In this document: in pieces, positions 30,292 through 56,724 of the stretch | Layout of the letters: each line of letters starts with the position of its first letter | Position numbering within the stretch: position 1 is the stretch's first letter | NCBI GenBank assembly: GCA_000961655.1 | Contig: LADR01000045.1 | Span: 62,001 to 126,000, forward strand | From: Desulfatitalea sp. BRH_c12 | Lineage (GTDB): Bacteria; Desulfobacterota; Desulfobacteria; Desulfobacterales; Desulfosarcinaceae | DNA length: 64,000 nt | Direction of reading: 5' to 3' | The notes under the pieces: model-generated | Databases searched by the model: none | What the model saw: only the letters and a program-made list of their open reading frames with translations | Told to the model about the DNA's origin: nothing | Translations under genes and position numbers: made by a program

Positions 30292-30365
30292 TGGGGGATC
30301 GTCTAGTGGTAGGACTACGGACTCTGACTCCGTCTGCCGAGGTTCGAATCCTCGTCCCCCAGCCA
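30292..30365 (+). tRNA. tRNA-Gln, anticodon CTG
   Basis: 74 nt including encoded CCA. The acceptor stem TGGGGGA pairs with TCCCCCA (30355-30361), the anticodon arm ACGGA-CTCTGAC-TCCGT gives anticodon CTG, and the T arm GAGG-TTCGAAT-CCTC is canonical. The start with T opposite A at the end of the acceptor is typical of tRNA-Gln. Its 3' side borders a block of decayed mobile DNA, consistent with use as an integration site. Confidence 0.97.
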
Positions 30366-30861: not shown

Positions 30862-31033
30862 TGCGGAAAGCTTCTTCATTCACTAAAAAAAGAATGGGAA
30901 AAGACACAGTTTATAGCACCCGTGATCGAGCAAGACGCGACGTCAACGATTATATCGAAATGTTTTATAACAGCAGACGGCTTCACTCTTTCATTAAATT
31001 CAAAAAACCGAACGACTTTGAAAAAAGAATCGA
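30862..31033 (+). pseudogene. IS3-family transposase fragment (OrfB C-terminus)
   Basis: One frame reads STRDRARRDVNDYIEMFYNS then RRLHSFIKFKKPNDFEKR, the C-terminal end of IS3/IS150-type OrfB transposases including the last catalytic glutamate helix region. Everything upstream of it is absent, so it is a dead fragment. No terminal repeats were recognised. Confidence 0.7.
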
Positions 31034-31110
31034 TTTTGACCACATCACTAGACTTTCCAACAGTAAAGACCGATTTGGGACAAACTTTACAAAAAGTGAA
31101 AAAAATCACA

Positions 31111-31140
31111 CAAAGTTACACAAAGTTACACAAATTTGCA
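31111..31140. repeat. Short tandem repeat
   Basis: The 10-mer CAAAGTTACA occurs twice in tandem (31111-31130), followed by a degenerate third copy CAAATTTGCA. It is AT-rich with no evident function, and sits between mobile-element debris and a lipoprotein gene. Confidence 0.6.
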
Positions 31141-31286
31141 CATTCCAAACAAGGTTTTACTAATTGTTTACATCTTAACCAACTGTAATTATTCGATACA
31201 CCTGAATATAAGTGAGGCATAATAATTGCAGCATTTTATCAGCTATTAATCTTGTTAAACCTTGAATTAATCAAATGAGGAGGGCC

Positions 31287-32159
31287 ATGAAAACAATTAA
31301 ATCCTGCATATTATTTTGTTTGGTTATGTTCCCACTGTTCATTACTGCTTGTGGTGGCGGCGGCAACGGAAGCGGTACTGGAACCTTATCCATGTCAGTC
31401 ACAGATGCTAAGCCATTACTTCCAGGTAATGTCACTAATTTATTCGTAGAATTTTCGGAAATCTGGGTTCACAAATCCGGTGGAGGATGGCAGCAATTAC
31501 CCCTGACAGAAACTCCTTACACGATTGACCTGTTGCAGTTTCAAGATGGCGATAAAACCGAATTGGTCCCCCCCGCAATACTTGATGCCGGGAAGTATAC
31601 TCAAGTGCGGTTTTTTGTTACCAATGCGATCATGCGGATGAGTAATGATGAAACCACAGACCAGATAATTGAAATCCCTAGTGAAAATTTAAAAACTGAC
31701 AAGAATTTTACAATCGATTTAACCGATGGGTCCGCCATAGATCTCATTATTCACTTTGATTTGAGCATGTCCGTTGTAGCTACAGGGACAGGGACATACC
31801 AAATGAAACCAGTCCTCCATCTATTTGAGGATCCCTTACAAGCAGCTATCATAAGCGGAAGCATCGACAATGCGTCTTTTGGCTTATCTGAAAAAGCGAC
31901 AGTAATGGTTCTTGACAGCAATGACATAATTTATACAAAAGCTGAGATCGAAAAATCAACTACTGATGACCCGACGGACTTCAGCATTTTCTGGTTGGTG
32001 CCTAATCAAATTTATACCGTACAAATTGATTTAAACCAGGATGGCACCATCGACTGTAATGAATATGAAGAGCTAATTCCTATGCTTGGGGAAGGAGATC
32101 AATATCCCTTAAATAGCGGCGTAGCGGTTATACTCGGTACTGATGATTGCGCCCCCTAA
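31287..32159 (+). CDS. DUF4382-type lipoprotein
   Basis: ATG 31287 follows a strong GAGGAGG. The protein starts with a lipoprotein signal peptide and lipobox LFITAC followed by GGGGNGSGTG, so it is predicted to be lipid-anchored and exported. Residues ~30-185 resemble DUF4382 (TLSMSVTDAKPLL ... NLFVEFSEIWVHKSGGGWQQ ... LDAGKYTQVRFFV); the C-terminal ~100 residues form a second beta-rich domain ending in an Asp-rich loop (DLNQDGTIDCNEYEE) like a calcium-binding site. Function is unknown. It is intact, AT-rich, and isolated among decayed transposons. Confidence 0.75.
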   Translation: MKTIKSCILFCLVMFPLFITACGGGGNGSGTGTLSMSVTDAKPLLPGNVTNLFVEFSEIWVHKSGGGWQQLPLTETPYTIDLLQFQDGDKTELVPPAILDAGKYTQVRFFVTNAIMRMSNDETTDQIIEIPSENLKTDKNFTIDLTDGSAIDLIIHFDLSMSVVATGTGTYQMKPVLHLFEDPLQAAIISGSIDNASFGLSEKATVMVLDSNDIIYTKAEIEKSTTDDPTDFSIFWLVPNQIYTVQIDLNQDGTIDCNEYEELIPMLGEGDQYPLNSGVAVILGTDDCAP

Positions 32160-32186
32160 TGTAAATTTATTTCACCTAATGCAATG

Positions 32187-32218
32187 AAAGGCAGGGTCTT
32201 TAAGGCTCTGCCTTTTTT
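32187..32218 (+). terminator. Intrinsic terminator after the lipoprotein gene
   Basis: AAAGGCAG and CTGCCTTT form an 8-bp stem extended by four further pairs, followed by a T run at 32213-32218. Confidence 0.9.
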
Positions 32219-32344
32219 AATCAGGAATAGACTTTTACCAATATCATAAGATATTGCTGACCTGTGACATCTTGCCAAGTTTTCAAATGCATCTTGCAAA
32301 TTCAAGTGAGAACTGTTGGCCAAACCAAATCCACTCTTGGCTGT

Positions 32345-32475
32345 ATAACACATTGAAAACCAAGACCGGCGACTTGCCGGCAGGTGTAACCTTATATCCT
32401 TCGACCGCGGTTCTGATCGGCACCCCGAAAGCCGGGGAGCAGCAGCGTCTATCCGCTGACCATCGCCGCCGAAAA
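32345..32475 (+). pseudogene. Fragment of a putative Ig-like (He_PIG) repeat protein
   Basis: Translation gives GDLPAGVTLYPSTAVLIGTP in one frame, continuing as VYPLTIAAENG after a frame change. This matches the LPAGLTL-GTP-AG pattern of putative immunoglobulin domains in large surface proteins. Only one repeat remains and it runs into transposase sequence, so it is a broken fragment, perhaps carried by the transposon. Confidence 0.4.
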
Positions 32476-32912
32476 TGGTTCAAACGCAAAATGGTCCAAA
32501 AACTTACTGGTCCTAATGCAATATCGGCCCTGGCATTGTCAAAGCAGGTTGACGTACCTCAAACAACACTGTCAAAATGGTTGCGAAATGCTGGAATTGA
32601 TACACCTTTTAGTTTCTCCGGTAAACCTAATGACACTGTGCAAATGAGGAGCCCCGTGACCAAAAAACGCCCGAACGACTGGAGTCCGGTTCTGAAAGTA
32701 GTTTTTATCGAGTTTAAAAGAACAAAAAATGATCAATCACCGCCAACTATCAAATCCGGCCACCCATCATCGGCCAAATGCGCATGTGGCAACCGGTCCT
32801 TGCCAGGTCTGGAGTTGGGATATAACTTACCTGCGCTCGCCGGTACGTGGAATGTTTTTCTACCTATACATGTTCGTTGATGTATGGAGTAGAAAAGTAG
32901 TCGCAATGCGTT
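32476..32912 (+). pseudogene. Internally deleted IS3-family element (OrfA and OrfB pieces)
   Basis: OrfA-type helix-turn-helix sequence is visible (KRKMVQKLTGPNAISALAL, then KQVDVPQTTLSKWLRNAGI), followed by RPNDWSP. After a frame change comes the start of an OrfB DDE domain, CQVWSWDITYLRSPVRGMFF and YMFVDVWSRKVVA, with the first catalytic aspartate in WDITYL. The middle and the C-terminus are missing. Its right edge, near 32912, cuts into a minus-strand gene (32912-32974). Confidence 0.75.
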
Positions 32913-32974
32913 CATTTTTTGCTATTTGTTAGCAGCGATCTGTAATACTTGCCTCCACAATTTTTCATAACCAT
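32912..32974 (-). pseudogene. 5' remnant of a gene downstream of the MerB-like selenoprotein
   Basis: ATG 32974 has AAGGAG eight bases upstream, and the frame reads MVMKNCGGKYYRSLLTN before running into IS3 remnant sequence and a TGA. It is the second position of the minus-strand unit beginning with the MerB-like gene (117-nt gap). It looks like the start of a second gene in the unit, truncated by the transposon. No family can be assigned from 17 residues. Confidence 0.45.
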
Positions 32975-33090
32975 GATCAGGTCTCCTTTACTTATCTTCG
33001 ACAGCTTGACAGTTTAATACCAGCAATGTTCTTCCATGGACTGAACCTGATGGATTCGCGGTACTGCATCCAGCAAAGACAGGTGGTTTA

Positions 33091-33801
33091 TTAATCTGAA
33101 ATTGGTGCCCAGAATAGTGAATTTCCTTTAATTTCCTTGATTTTTTCCAAAAAAAACGACTTATAGACTGATATGGATGATACATAATTCTTGCTCAATT
33201 TATCAGTGTGAAGTGGTGTGCTAAAAATCGTCATAAGATCATTGAGTGATAGAATACCTTCGTCGGTACCATCTTGAAATCCTGACCAGTTCCTCACATG
33301 TTCTTCCGACCGGAAGAGATTCATGCGGCCTCATGCGAAAGACCAGTTTTTTGCCCAATCGCTCAGTGGAACATTTGTATATGCCATAATCTCTGATGTG
33401 CTTTGGTTTTTTATTACCCCGTCGCACAAAACAACGCGGATGAACTCACCACAATCCAAACATGGCGCATCGACTTGAATTGTTTTACCGGGGAAGACCC
33501 AGCAAACTGCCAGGGCGTCAAAACCTCATGGTGTAAACCATTTTTGCTGTCCATCTACCGAAATACGGTATTGCGTCGGTAAGTTGCTGAAAGGACTAAA
33601 TGTAACAATGAAGTCTGTATGTGGATGCAACCACATGGCTCCCAACTTGGCATTCATCAATTCATGCAGTAGATTTTTACCCGAATCTGGTTGAATTTTA
33701 AATTCTCGTGAGATCTCGGTGTAATGTGGAGCGTGACCGGTTTTGACAAAGGTATTCATGATAAAATGATGGGTCCGGTTTAACGACAGCAGGTCAACCA
33801 T
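33091..33801 (-). CDS. MerB-like (organomercurial lyase family) protein with two predicted selenocysteines
   Basis: ATG 33801 follows AAGGAGG. Read straight through, the frame has TGA at codon 92 (33528-33526) and codon 157 (33333-33331) and ends at TAA 33091, 236 residues. Order: N-terminal winged-helix-like region (HHFIMNTFVKTGHAPHYTEI), FSNLPTQYRISVDGQQKWF, then TP-U-GFDALAV, a Cys cluster (DAPCLDCGEF), and SFA-U-GRMNLFRSEEHVRNW. From memory of E. coli MerB, U92 aligns with catalytic Cys96 (Asp95 with Asp99, Cys114 with Cys117) and U157 with Cys159. Both TGAs precede SECIS-like hairpins and conservation continues past each, arguing against decay. MerB cleaves carbon-mercury bonds; the substrate here is unproven and no merA, merT or merP is near. 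Divergent from the Sec-LysR gene. Confidence 0.8.
33302..33317 (-). promoter_or_regulatory. SECIS-like hairpin after TGA codon 157 of the MerB-like gene
   Basis: A perfect 6-bp stem TCTTCC/GGAAGA closes the tetraloop GGTC, with the loop 20-23 nt after the TGA. GGUC is the apical loop sequence of the E. coli fdhF SECIS. Confidence 0.72.
33498..33525 (-). promoter_or_regulatory. SECIS-like hairpin after TGA codon 92 of the MerB-like gene
   Basis: Starting directly after TGA, nt 11-13 CCC pair with nt 26-28 GGG, T14 is bulged, G15-T25 wobble, and GCA (16-18) pairs with TGC (22-24) around loop GTT. The GCA/TGC top, bulged U and loop G sit at nearly the same distances as in the E. coli fdhF SECIS. 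Confidence 0.6.
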
Positions 33802-33965
33802 AAATCCTCCTTTTTTTAATCGTTTCAAAAACTAACTTTGCCAACAATACCAAATATTTTCGCTTAAGTTACGCCTTTTCACTCGCCGTTCGTCTCTCAA
33901 TTTCTTTAATCGTTTTTCATGTTGACCTCATATTGTATATTTCGCAATTATTGATTAATAGGGAT

Positions 33966-33986
33966 AATCGATCGTGTCCAACGATT
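33966..33986. promoter_or_regulatory. LysR-type operator-like palindrome in the divergent promoter region
   Basis: AATCG (33966-33970), 11 nt, CGATT (33982-33986) forms a perfect interrupted dyad 43 nt before the LysR start. It lies in the 227-nt gap (33802-34028) shared by the two divergent selenoprotein genes. TTGACC at 33931 may be a -35 element for the LysR gene. The gap holds no other gene. Confidence 0.5.
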
Positions 33987-34028
33987 AATTCCGATACAAC
34001 CCATCGGATCTTACGATAGGAGAATGAA

Positions 34029-34913
34029 ATGGAATTCCGCCAACTTAGGACATTCCGCGTTGTTGCGGATAATTTAAGCTTTTCTAAAGCCGCAGAGCAG
34101 CTATTTATGGCGCAGTCCTCGGTATCCGCTCAAATCAGATTGTTGGAGGAAGAACTGGATTTGAAGCTATTTGACCGCATTGGCCGTCGTGTTGTCACTA
34201 CAGATGCTGGTCTGAAACTCTATGAATATGCCCGTCGCATAGAAGAAATGACTGATGAAATCCACTCAGAGGTGACCGGTGCTAAAAACGTCCGAGGGTC
34301 GTTGACAATCCGAATTCCCGAAACCTTGGCAACTATATACATGCCTCAAGTAGTGGATCGCTTTCACGAAGACAATCCACAGGCAAAACTGAATTTTATC
34401 AACTGTTCAGACGTACAACTGCGGGAGGAATTAAACTCAGGGCGCATCGACCTAGCCTTTTTGATGACGGACTCTATTCACTTAGGAGAGGTCAATGTTC
34501 GTATGCTTAGAACCGAAAATCTTGTCCTCATTTCGGGTCCAGCAAATTCGCTATCCAAGCGAAGAAAAGTAATGCCGGATGACTTGTATGGACAAACCGT
34601 ACTTTTGCCCAAAACCGACTGAAGTTATCGTAAGGCATTCGAGCGGTCGCTTGAAAGACAAAAAATATCGTCTCATAAGCTTGAGTTTTCAAGTATAAAC
34701 AGTATGCGGAATTGTCTAAAACGAGGGGTTGGTTATTCTATTTGTCCAGAAATATCGGTTAGTAAAGAACTTACCGATGGGAGTTTATCAAAACTCAGAT
34801 GGGGTTCAGAGCATTTTGAAACATCTGTAATTATGATATGGCATGCTGAAAAGTGGTGTTCCCCGTTACTCAAACATTTTATGATGTTATCTACGGATAT
34901 TATCTCCAATTAG
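34029..34913 (+). CDS. LysR-type transcriptional regulator with predicted selenocysteine at position 198
   Basis: Begins MEFRQLRTFRVVADNLSFSK, with the LysR helix-turn-helix AAEQLFMAQSSVSAQIRLLE and effector domain start SLTIRIPETLATIYMPQVV. TGA at 34620-34622 is codon 198; the same frame continues SYRKAFERSLERQK ... EFSSINSMRNCLKRGVGYSI and stops with TAG at 34913, giving 294 residues, exactly LysR length. By my alignment from memory, TD-U-SYRKAF lies over GH-C-LRDQ of OxyR, so U198 matches the peroxide-sensing Cys199; other LysR proteins also often have Cys there. A SECIS-like hairpin with loop GGTC follows. GGAG lies upstream of ATG 34029. It is divergent from, and probably controls, the MerB-like selenoprotein gene. 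The alternative is a nonsense-mutated pseudogene. Confidence 0.78.
34638..34655 (+). promoter_or_regulatory. SECIS-like hairpin after TGA codon 198 of the LysR-type gene
   Basis: TTCGAGC (34638-34644) pairs with GCTTGAA (34649-34655), seven pairs with one G-T wobble, closing tetraloop GGTC. The loop lies 23-26 nt after the TGA, within the window used by bacterial SelB. Confidence 0.7.
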
Positions 34914-34961
34914 TTACTTTTTGACCATCTATTTACCAGGTACAGATAGCCCAAAGGTCCA

Positions 34962-35235
34962 ATGAAAACATCCAGGGCAGCCCAAGTCTGGATCGAGTAC
35001 CACATGAACCATTCCAAAAAAATACGGTTCGTTCCTATAAGGTGGTGATCGAGCGCTTCTGCCACAGTACGGCGATGATAAAAACGATCAACTGACCTCC
35101 GACCAGATCCTTGCCTTCCTCAATCAACTCACTGAGGGCAACAAACCTTACGCCAAACGAATCAGATGCTCCCAGCTTTCATGCTTTTTTAATTTCGTGC
35201 ATAACAACATAATGCTCATTGCCCTGATTTGCTGA
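34962..35235 (+). pseudogene. Tyrosine recombinase fragment (N-terminal core-binding domain)
   Basis: From ATG 34962 frames give VWIEYHMNHSKK, then (shifted) NTVRSYKVVIERFC, DQLTSDQILAFLNQLTEGNK and PYAKRIRCSQLSCFFNF, the SAM-like N-terminal domain of phage-type integrases. At least two frameshifts and the absence of a catalytic domain make it dead. It differs from the integrase beside tRNA-Gln, so more than one element has inserted here. Confidence 0.6.
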
Positions 35236-35274
35236 GCGTGGGTTGTTCTCTCTATCCGCGGCTCACGCCGAAGC

Positions 35275-35420
35275 CAAGAGACCTCTAAGAGGTGAACCAG
35301 CCTCTGCCAGTTGTATAAGGTGGCTTCGCTGATGCATTCTTCGAAAAGGGTAACTGTTCGGTTGTGCGGTGGCCCCATCTATTTCAGCACGGCCTTTTTG
35401 AGCTCTGACGAATATCGCAT
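35275..35420 (-). pseudogene. Transposase OrfA-like fragment
   Basis: From ATG 35420 the frame reads MRYSSELKKAVLK, an in-frame TAG at 35381, then MGPPHNRTVTLFEECISEAT and LYNWQR. This is the N-terminal helix-turn-helix of IS3-type OrfA proteins. The rest is unrecognisable. The 636-nt gap between the LysR gene and the XRE regulator contains only this and the preceding fragment. Confidence 0.55.
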
Positions 35421-35549
35421 GCATGAACATGCCTCCCCGATCGCAATTAATTTTTCATAATTTGAGTTGACAAATGTTTCTTATAATGAAACAGATTCTT
35501 TCAAGCCTACATACAATAAATGCAATTCAACAAATAAGAGTATCCCAAT

Positions 35550-36128
35550 ATGAAACAAACATCTGTGCTCATAGAATCGGAAATAGGAAAGAGGATCAAG
35601 GCTCTTCGATTGGAAAAACGTATTACCCTGGAGAATCTCTCCGCCCAAACGGGTTTTACGAAAGGCTATCTCTCCAAAGTCGAAAAATCCGAAAAGGCCC
35701 CACCGGTTTCAACTCTTGGCACTATCGCCCGTGCCCTCAATACGACTATTTCGCACCTTCTGGGTGAAGACAACTATTCGCTGTCCATCAGTCTTGTCAA
35801 AAAAACAGAAAGACAGTTGATCACAGGTGGTGGGACAAGCGTTGGATATTCTTATGAAGCTGTGGCCCAAAAGTTTAACAACAAGGCGATGGAGCCCTTT
35901 GTTCTGACCCTCCCGGTCAACCCAAAGAAGAGAAAATTCTATCATCACATAGGACAGGAGATCCTTTTTGTTCTGGAAGGCACTATGAGGTTTTTTCACG
36001 GCACAGAAGAGTTGATCGCCGAAGAAGGCGATTGTGTGTATTTGGATTCGAGCATACCTCATTTCGGAGAATCCGTGGGCGAAAAAGCTGTCAAATGTTT
36101 CATGGTCGTTTTCAGCCCAGATAATTAA
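35550..36128 (+). CDS. XRE-family regulator with C-terminal cupin domain
   Basis: 192 residues. Residues ~12-68 form an XRE helix-turn-helix (IKALRLEKRITLENLSAQTG, FTKGYLSKVEKSEKAPPVST); residues ~115-185 form a cupin (GQEILFVLEGTMRFFHGTEE, CVYLDSSIPHFGES) with the ligand/metal-site histidine. Such regulators typically sense small carboxylates, amino acids or polyamines and control the neighbouring operon, here the liv/CoA-transferase genes 50 nt downstream on the same strand. Ribosome site is weak. Confidence 0.85.
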   Translation: MKQTSVLIESEIGKRIKALRLEKRITLENLSAQTGFTKGYLSKVEKSEKAPPVSTLGTIARALNTTISHLLGEDNYSLSISLVKKTERQLITGGGTSVGYSYEAVAQKFNNKAMEPFVLTLPVNPKKRKFYHHIGQEILFVLEGTMRFFHGTEELIAEEGDCVYLDSSIPHFGESVGEKAVKCFMVVFSPDN

Positions 36129-36178: not shown

Positions 36179-37031
36179 ATGAGCGGCATTCCCGTTTTTT
36201 TCCTTCACGGCCTTGCCTACGCCGGACTTCTTTTTCTTGTCTCGGCGGGTCTCACCCTCATCTTCGGGATGATGAACGTCCTGAATTTCGCCCATGCGGC
36301 AATGTACATGCTGGGTGCCTACTTCTCCTACACTATCGTCATGCAGTTGACCGGACAATTCTGGATGGCGATGATCTTGGTCCCCTTGATCCTTTTTTTT
36401 ATTGACCCAGATCGTGACCGAACTCTTTCACCCTGCCGGTACAAAGGATTTCGCCCCTTACGCGAGCCAGCTCATTGCTGTCAAACCGGATGTCATTTTC
36501 ACGCCTAACTGGGGTAACGATCTTACGCTGCTGCTCAAGCAGGGCCGCCCTATGGGAATGAATCAAAAAGTGTTTTCCTACTACATCAATGATGAAGTGA
36601 CCATTCAGGCGCTTGGCAACGACGAGCTGATGATTGGTAACATGGGGGCGGAAATATATACGCTTTCCATTCCCACCAAAAAAAATGAGGAATTCGTTGC
36701 CAAGTTTTATAAGGACAAGGGATATTATCCGACGTGGCTGCGCGGCAAAGCCTATATCGCCACCATGTTCTGGGCCGAAGCTGTCAAGAAAGCCGGAACT
36801 ACCGACGTAGAAAAAGTCATCAAGGCATGGGAAGGCCTCACCTATGACGGACCCGCCGGCATCTGGACAATGCGCGCCTGCGATCATCAGGCGCAGGTAC
36901 CTTACTGGTATACCGAAATGGTGGCAAAAACATCTTATTTCAATCATGCCTTCAAAGCACCGGCAGGCATGATATCCTCAACAGCGGTGGAAGTGCCGTG
37001 TGAGGAGACCGGCTGCACCATGAAGAAGTAA
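36179..37031 (+). pseudogene. Deletion scar joining livH 5' part to a substrate-binding protein 3' part
   Basis: From ATG 36179 (AAGGA upstream) the first ~74 codons are the N-terminus of a branched-chain-type permease (AGLTLIFGMMNVLNFAHAAM). At about 36395-36402 the frame changes and the sequence becomes the C-terminal two-thirds of a periplasmic ligand-binding protein (HPAGTKDFAPYASQLIAVKP ... TGCTMKK, stop 37031). A deletion removed the rest of livH, presumably livM, livG and livF, and the start of the binding protein. Neither product is functional. An intact transporter of the same class exists at 46200-50840. Confidence 0.8.
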
Positions 37032-55611: not shown

Positions 55612-56724
55612 ATGCCATTACCAAAACTTGTCATTGGAGATCTAACAATCAATGTTCCTATTATTCAGGGGGGCATGGGGGTCGGCATTTCTCTTTCGGG
55701 GCTGGCATCTGCAGTGGCAGACCAGGGCGGTGTGGGGGTTATTGCGGCCGCCATGCCGGGTATTCATGAGCCGGACATTGCTACCAACAGTGATGCCGCC
55801 AATATCCGTGTATTGGAAAGAGAGATCAGAAAGGCGCGGCGAATGACCTCGGGGGTTATCGGTGTCAATATCATGGTCGCCTTGACCAATTACGCTGATA
55901 TGGTGCGCACGGCTATCGCCGAAAAGATCGATATCATCTTCTCCGGTGCCGGTTTGCCGCTTGACTTGCCGGGTTTTCTGAAAGCAGGCTCTGTAACCAA
56001 ACTGGTGCCCATTGTATCGTCGGCCAGAGCGGCCAAAATTATCTGTCAAAAATGGTTGGCGCGGTTCGACTATCTGCCGGACGCCTTTGTGGTTGAAGGC
56101 CCTAAAGCAGGGGGACACATCGGATTTAAACCGGACCAGATCGATGATCCCAAATTTTCCCTGGAAAAAATTGTGACCGAAGTAATCGAAATCCTTAAAC
56201 CCATTGAAGCAGAAAACGATCGAACGATCCCGGTCATTGCCGCTGGCGGCATCTTTAACGGCCAGGACATTTACGCGTTCATAGAAATGGGAGCAGCAGG
56301 AGTGCAAATGGGTACACGTTTTGTTGCAACCCATGAATGTGATGCCGATGCAGCTTTTAAACAAGCATATGTCGATTCCAAAAAAGAGGATATGGTGATC
56401 ATCAAGAGCCCGGTTGGGTTGCCTGGTCGGGCGGTTCGGAATGCCTTCATCGATGAGATCACCAAAGGGCGCCAAAAACCGTTTAAGTGCCCGTTTCACT
56501 GCATTAAAACATGTAACCCCAAAAAGAGCCCTTATTGCATTGCCATTGCTTTAGGCAATGCCCGCAAGGGCAAAATGAAACAAGGATTTGCATTTGCGGG
56601 TCAAAACGCCTATCGCGTTGACGAGATCATATCTGTCAAGGAGTTGATGACTTTGCTTCAAACAGAATACCACCTAACCGATATCTGTTCAAAAACTCAA
56701 ACCACTGAACTGGTAACGACATGA
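55612..56724 (+). CDS. Nitronate monooxygenase family flavoprotein (2-nitropropane dioxygenase-like)
   Basis: TIM-barrel FMN protein of about 370 residues. I take ATG 55612 (PLPKLVIGDLTINVPIIQGG) with AGGAG ten bases upstream; longer starts at 55591 or 55540 are possible. Motifs: IIQGGMGVGISLSGLASAVA, VIGVNIMVALTNYADMV, EGPKAGGHIGF, IPVIAAGGIFNGQDI, AAGVQMGTRFVATHEC. The C-terminus has a cysteine-rich segment (KCPFHCIKTCNPKKSPYC) that could bind a metal or Fe-S cluster, as in enoyl-reductase-like members of anaerobes. Oxygen-dependent nitronate oxidation is unlikely if the host is anaerobic; an FabK-like or other reductase role is possible. Confidence 0.8.
   Translation: MPLPKLVIGDLTINVPIIQGGMGVGISLSGLASAVADQGGVGVIAAAMPGIHEPDIATNSDAANIRVLEREIRKARRMTSGVIGVNIMVALTNYADMVRTAIAEKIDIIFSGAGLPLDLPGFLKAGSVTKLVPIVSSARAAKIICQKWLARFDYLPDAFVVEGPKAGGHIGFKPDQIDDPKFSLEKIVTEVIEILKPIEAENDRTIPVIAAGGIFNGQDIYAFIEMGAAGVQMGTRFVATHECDADAAFKQAYVDSKKEDMVIIKSPVGLPGRAVRNAFIDEITKGRQKPFKCPFHCIKTCNPKKSPYCIAIALGNARKGKMKQGFAFAGQNAYRVDEIISVKELMTLLQTEYHLTDICSKTQTTELVTT

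Follow-up and report, generated by a model that had tools for sequence, protein, structure and literature searches.

Does a gene of Desulfatitalea sp. BRH_c12 encode a MerB-family protein in which both catalytic cysteines are replaced by selenocysteine (Sec), and, if so, on what would such a protein act? The gene lies in the 64,000-nucleotide stretch of DNA that was analysed (the window). In MerB itself, Cys96 and Cys159 are the mercury ligands, and Asp99 serves to transfer the proton. A first-pass annotation, made from the letters alone, placed the gene at 33091–33801, and these coordinates are right; the strand, which it did not give, is the minus strand, the frame on the plus strand being closed. 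Read with TGA as Sec, the gene is translated into 236 residues with exactly two internal TGA codons, as had been claimed, at residue 92 (33526–33528) and residue 157 (33331–33333), and its final stop is not TGA. The motif AGGAGG is found by eye directly upstream of the merB ATG.

The assignment of this protein to the MerB family is upheld by the Pfam model MerB (PF03243), which covers residues 71–190 with 65.8 bits (E 4.9e-18; gathering cut-off, 27 bits). The equivalences to E. coli MerB that had been proposed also hold. In a HMMER alignment of a family profile, built from 13 sequences, with E. coli MerB (1S6L), U92 falls on Cys96, D95 (33517–33519, minus strand) on Asp99, C114 on Cys117, and U157 on Cys159; both thiol/selenol columns, the acid column, and the Cys117 column of MerB are therefore filled. 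The AlphaFold2 model has a mean pLDDT of 89.4, and a Foldseek search with it returned 11 PDB matches at E ≤ 0.001, every one MerB or MerB2, with TM-scores by query of 0.49–0.65. The lyase is thus like the characterised enzymes (E. coli 1S6L/3F0O; MerB2 5C17) in family, predicted fold, and these four columns, and unlike them in having Sec for both catalytic Cys; its identity to them in the Foldseek alignments is 12–18%. The NCBIfam MerB models NF009710 and NF033555 gave no match to it at E ≤ 1. Cut at its UGAs, as in conventional gene calling, this one gene falls into pieces of 91, 64, and 79 residues, none of which attains the Pfam MerB cut-off of 27 bits (best, 17.6 bits).

Two internal stops could also mark a decayed MerB pseudogene that has taken two nonsense mutations, and the surrounding DNA, from 31 to 36 kb, is low in GC and holds truncated genes. 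The relatives of the gene argue strongly against such decay. A scan of the genome_contigs collection gave 14 relatives, and TGA occupies both columns in 13 of the 13 that are readable (L010, masked and out of frame, was left out). These 13 are metagenome-assembled records named Nitrospiraceae, Desulfarculales, Desulfarculus, Deltaproteobacteria, Thermodesulfobacteriota, Chloroflexi, Dehalococcoidia, Herpetosiphon, and Candidatus Abyssobacteria. In a read-through survey of the window's phylum, 60 MerB matches were found in 50 of 395 genomes; the two catalytic columns read TGA/TGA in 36 of them (including 35 loci besides the window), Cys/TGA in 5, and Cys/Cys in 16, with 3 partly covered. The joint alignment of 73 rows (59 survey loci, 13 genome_contigs loci, and the window) has 49 TGA/TGA rows (here UU), 5 Cys/TGA, 16 Cys/Cys, and 3 partly covered, with only Cys or TGA at both columns wherever they are covered; TGA was entered as C for aligning, which biases TGA onto Cys, but visual inspection shows that the flanking motifs match as well. 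Among the UU rows, two proteins are present twice, once from each collection, which leaves 47 distinct TGA/TGA sequences. In addition, the remaining frame of the window's gene is intact, with 42–58% identity to 12 aligned relatives. A pseudogene is thereby refuted for the family and very unlikely for this copy, and a sequencing error is excluded by the occurrence of the same TGAs in many separate assemblies.

The UU rows are split by a quick tree into the window's subfamily A (n = 40; SH-aLRT 98 for the group that also takes in two fragments) and a distant subfamily B (n = 9; SH-aLRT 100). The latter comprises L079, L082, L083, L084, L087, L088, L089, L091, and L093, which have TGA at both catalytic columns and hairpins of their own. 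The acid column holds Glu in 35, Asp in 4, and Lys in 1 (L002) of the 40 members of subfamily A, and Asp in all nine members of subfamily B. Two sister rows on very short branches, L050 and L072, differ at the second column (Cys and TGA, respectively), in what is apparently a recent Cys/Sec swap. On the starred branches of the quick tree, the UU label must have changed twice or more; since subfamily B joins long branches, we are unsure whether the presumed dual-Sec state of the two subfamilies originated once or twice.

The annotation had also described a SECIS-like hairpin after each TGA. The first (33498–33514, minus strand) has 6 bp and a 5-nt loop, AGUUU, starting 17 nt past the UGA; the second (33302–33317, minus strand) has 6 bp and a GGUC loop starting 19 nt past it. 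One fixed geometry per site, picked after inspecting energy-based folds, was applied across the relatives: a 5-nt loop, 17 nt after UGA-1, closed by 6 bp or more, and a 4-nt loop, 19 nt after UGA-2, closed by 5 bp or more. In subfamily A, the site-1 geometry is present in 42 of 42 sequences, with GGUCU as the commonest loop (25), and the site-2 geometry in all 39 testable ones, with GGUC in 35; L014 stands outside the latter count, its hairpin region being cut by a contig end. Subfamily B has hairpins at 9/9 first sites, farther downstream, and at 9/9 second sites. As a control, the Cys codons of relatives are followed by the identical geometry, at a minimum of 5 bp, in only 1 of 21 cases at site 1 and 2 of 17 at site 2. 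The fixed site-2 geometry is absent from all five Cys/TGA genes; one of these, L039, instead forms an 8-bp stem under a 3-nt loop, and an energy-based hairpin rule is satisfied by three of the five. That rule is passed by 49 of 51 first sites (the failures being L065 and the window) and 50 of 53 second sites (the failures being L002, L042, and L044). For the window's hairpin 1, an alternative fold of the 45–46 nt stretch has lower energy, and the loop AGUUU is unique within the set. The dinucleotide z-scores of the window's 46–47 nt stretches are −0.12, −1.38, and −0.69, and folding energy alone is a weak test of these hairpins.

Synonymous conservation points to the same two places. Over 177 scored columns in 40 sequences, the mean synonymous excess is 0.204 at codons 93–107 and 0.295 at codons 158–172, against 0.037 elsewhere; the top 8-codon windows are codons 158–165 and 95–102, and the excess was equalled by 46 of 20,000 random column sets at site 1 and by none of 20,000 at site 2. 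Geometry and synonymous conservation hence support both hairpins, even though the window's site 1 fails the energy-based rule. GGUC loops resemble the loop of the E. coli fdhF SECIS. They are also rare: on both strands of the window, a GGUC tetraloop on a stem of at least 6 bp, 14–27 nt downstream, follows only 3 of 2240 TGA triplets. Among these are UGA-2 of the lyase and the UGA in the LysR-type regulator gene described below. The third, at 56396 on the plus strand, has 11 bp including 7 G-U pairs and is probably due to chance.

The genome has the machinery that such decoding needs. A check for sel genes, which had been proposed for this locus, found selA (613.8 bits, cut-off 268), selB (379.5, cut-off 242), tRNA-Sec (selC; 72.4, cut-off 47), and selD (372.6, cut-off 125). 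The selD gene (L033; G000:C66:111700-112626) has one in-frame TGA of its own, as has known selenoprotein SelD. All 28 UU genomes have a selA match, which says little, since 359 of the 395 phylum genomes have one as well. The UGAs might alternatively be decoded as cysteine or another amino acid, or UGA might be reassigned in this genome, and it is true that Cys is the alternative residue at both columns. Against this stand the full Sec machinery, the conserved hairpin after each UGA, and the use of TGA as terminator by 10 of the 39 frames in the window that run for 300 codons or more from stop to stop (a set that includes some frames which are not genes); TGA thus appears to be a normal stop in this genome, and decoding as anything but Sec is highly improbable. 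Pseudogene decay, sequencing error, and code reassignment were all rejected on these grounds, namely that the TGAs recur in relatives and that TGA is an apparent normal stop. The features of a bacterial selenoprotein (UGA aligned with Cys, downstream hairpins, and sel genes) were all found, and the lyase very probably incorporates selenocysteine at both positions. Its family, fold, columns, recoding signals, and genome machinery are supported by comparison. Of the conditions that the annotation had set as refuting, those open to computation came out in its favour: where the two columns are covered, homologues have only Cys or TGA, the sel genes are present, and the TGAs recur in separate assemblies.

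The annotation named no described MerB selenoprotein, but reviews list a single-Sec MerB relative, SaoL (NF040728), the MerB-like organometallic lyase of the SAO system. SaoL, known to us via a review, was reportedly defined by Haft and Gwadz in 2023. Might the window's lyase be an ordinary member of that single-Sec family? SaoL is its sole NCBIfam match, at 43.8 bits, other models giving none at E ≤ 1. However, the curated cut-off of SaoL is 140 bits; it is passed at 175.3 bits by L039, which has Cys on the Cys96 column and Sec only on the Cys159 column, and from which the window's subfamily stands apart as a group of its own in the quick tree (SH-aLRT 98). In a 2026 review that inventories 119 prokaryotic selenoprotein families, the MerB entry is SaoL only, with one Sec in a CU motif (PMC13188914), whereas the lyase has two Sec and an Ala before U157. 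Plain membership of SaoL is accordingly the least credible of the readings considered here. For SaoL the review cites PMC2398784; neither MerB nor alkylmercury occurs as a word in the main text of PMC2398784, PMC5029168, or PMC12013277. An earlier list, in its accessible part, includes an "alkylmercury lyase MerB-like protein" (PMC9312934). The inventory's table also names NF041115, "Metal-binding protein (putative mercuric reductase)", which likewise has two Sec and a name derived from mercury (PMC13188914); its listing places it in a different family, and its motif is UxxU and not two separate catalytic columns. In the accessible portions of the literature on MerB, alkylmercury lyase, or organomercurial lyase together with selenocysteine, a double-Sec MerB was not found, although an earlier mention by Haft (2023/2025) is possible.

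With Sec at both catalytic positions, a mechanism close to that of MerB can be proposed. SelB and tRNA-Sec would insert Sec at each UGA, directed in each case by its own downstream hairpin. Sec92 and Sec157 would then hold the mercury of an organomercurial (e.g., methylmercury) as a bis-selenolate, and Asp95 (Glu in most of the subfamily) would help proton transfer to carbon; the hydrocarbon would depart, and the diselenol would keep Hg(II) until its transfer to a cellular thiol or selenol. Regulation aside, a dual-Sec enzyme of MerB fold working by such a MerB-like mechanism is a reasonably likely reading of the locus. Substrate, catalysis, Hg release, and regulation are points that we infer; of the interpretation originally offered, the dual Sec at catalytic positions is well supported, and the organomercurial-lyase activity belongs with these inferred points. 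According to a review, Hg-C bonds are broken more rapidly by selone mimics of organomercurial lyase than by the corresponding sulfur compounds (PMC11639659). On the other hand, very tight Hg-Se binding could hinder product release.

It is somewhat more likely than not that the lyase acts mainly on organomercurials. The gene hgcA, which encodes the corrinoid protein of mercury methylation, is present in the window's genome (G000:C24:485010-485993; 443.8 bits, cut-off 275). In the phylum, hgcA exceeds its cut-off in 19 of 28 UU genomes and in 95 of 367 others (Fisher p = 1.0e-5, a crude comparison); within 12 families, 17 of 26 UU genomes have it against 13.3 expected, a value reached by 3.3% of shuffles, the family lists omitting 16 and 79 unmatched genomes. 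The link between the UU gene and hgcA, strong crudely and weak within families, is suggestive. A dual-Sec protein of MerB fold might instead act on another substrate, for instance an organic compound of arsenic, tin, or selenium, or it might only capture a metal ion. The distance of the lyase from characterised MerB (best single-sequence PDB match, MerB2 at E 0.011) would allow this, as would the naming of SaoL, its nearest named family, as an organometallic rather than a mercury lyase. The genomic surroundings are in keeping with it as well: comparison of 38 neighbourhoods with each other found no conserved operon around the lyase. Seven clusters occur in at least four neighbourhoods. Three of them, with 15, 14, and 5 loci, consist of the lyase or of a frame on the strand opposite it. 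The other four, judged by how up to three example sequences of each begin, look like general families (response-regulator or signalling proteins, short-chain dehydrogenases, ABC ATPases, and cysteine synthase), mostly far from the lyase. Genomic context therefore names no substrate, because no family but the lyase itself recurs beside the lyase. Against a different substrate speak the metal-binding columns, which stay Cys/Sec, and the acid column, which stays Asp/Glu in nearly all rows, besides the excess of hgcA, weak as it is within families. A substrate other than organomercurials is thus a possibility of lesser weight, though a real one.

Divergent from the lyase gene, across an intergenic region read by eye (33802–34028), lies a second gene with an in-frame TGA. 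It encodes a LysR-type regulator of 294 residues (34029–34910, plus strand; stop TAG at 34911–34913) that is matched by both Pfam domains, HTH_1 and LysR_substrate. Its putative Sec codon, residue 198 (34620–34622, plus strand), stands at a column that holds Cys in 35 of 35 aligned Cys-type relatives (16 + 19), and is followed by a SECIS-like hairpin (34638–34655, plus strand) of 7 bp with a GGUC loop starting 22 nt past the UGA. In L003, a homologous regulator, likewise divergent, stands past a CMD-family gene and has TGC at this codon. A search of the order (336 genomes) gave eight more homologues with one TGA (52–77% identity), at the same codon in 8/8; the lower-scoring matches listed have no TGA. 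All nine share the hairpin 22 nt downstream, with a majority stem UUCGAGC/GCUCGAA and the loop GGUC, once GGUU. Pairing holds in 96.8% of 63 cells; L151 and L156 have a single mismatch apiece, and two of the pairs show changes on both sides. With the partner slid, 32–48% pair, and the observed pairing was reached by 15 of 500 shuffles. The column of residue 198 adjoins that of OxyR Cys199; equivalence to Cys199 was considered and rejected, since the partner of residue 198 is His198, an offset of one column that all three alignments show. The nearest NCBIfam model is NF040786 (LysR_Se), with 155.1 bits under a cut-off of 250. This selenium metabolism-associated LysR family, in the accessible part of its source, is not described with a Sec residue (PMC5322559), in contrast to the putative Sec198 of the regulator. 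The inventory of 119 families lists no LysR regulator (PMC13188914), and the accessible portions of the literature on selenocysteine with LysR or transcription factors yielded no published Sec-containing LysR regulator; the protein is possibly the first of its kind.

This putatively Sec-containing LysR-type regulator may control the lyase next door. Of the nine Sec-LysR genes, only the window's copy adjoins a lyase; the neighbourhoods of the other eight contain no MerB gene (in L174, the best match has 15 bits), so that the argument for such control is the position in the window. The neighbours differ elsewhere. For example, L174 has a divergent C_GCAxxG_C_C protein (Pfam), as has L147 by eye, and in L175 the neighbour is a small protein. 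In L173, one frame from the Sec-LysR gene, an AhpD-like protein running downwards from 6714 on the minus strand has a CxxU motif (GCYPU) and is a selenoprotein candidate in its own right.

The lyase gene and the divergent regulator gene lie in a stretch (31000–36000) of 39–45% GC, with flanks mostly at 49–59%, shortly past a tRNA gene (30292–30362). The stretch looks like acquired DNA, and, given its low GC and the truncated genes nearby, the window's copy of the lyase could be newly acquired. Beyond it, at 36179–37031 on the plus strand, the start of a branched-chain amino acid permease overlaps the end of a periplasmic binding protein in another frame, in what looks like a deletion scar.

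These results bear on how organic mercury is followed in anoxic environments. To our knowledge, the genes that make methylmercury (hgcA) are well tracked, whereas those that destroy it in anoxic settings are not. Double-Sec genes make up 36 of the 60 MerB-family matches in the phylum sample, and, given that the fragments of the window's gene, the one gene so examined, all fall below the Pfam MerB cut-off, merB surveys built on ordinary gene calls would probably fail to detect genes of this type. A diselenol lyase would also allow a direct test of whether selenium brings faster Hg-C cleavage or merely tighter capture, and a Sec-bearing LysR regulator, if confirmed, would extend selenocysteine to a large family of gene regulators. 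Both proteins could even form a selenium-based organomercury circuit, in which a regulator sensing a ligand or oxidant through Sec divergently controls a diselenol organomercurial lyase in an hgcA-bearing host. This reading is speculative and rather improbable, and is rated lower because the MerB gene is missing from the eight other Sec-LysR neighbourhoods. If it were true, selenium-using bacteria would hold a large reservoir of methylmercury demethylases that have so far gone uncounted, and LysR-type transcription factors would gain their first selenoproteins in the regulator family.
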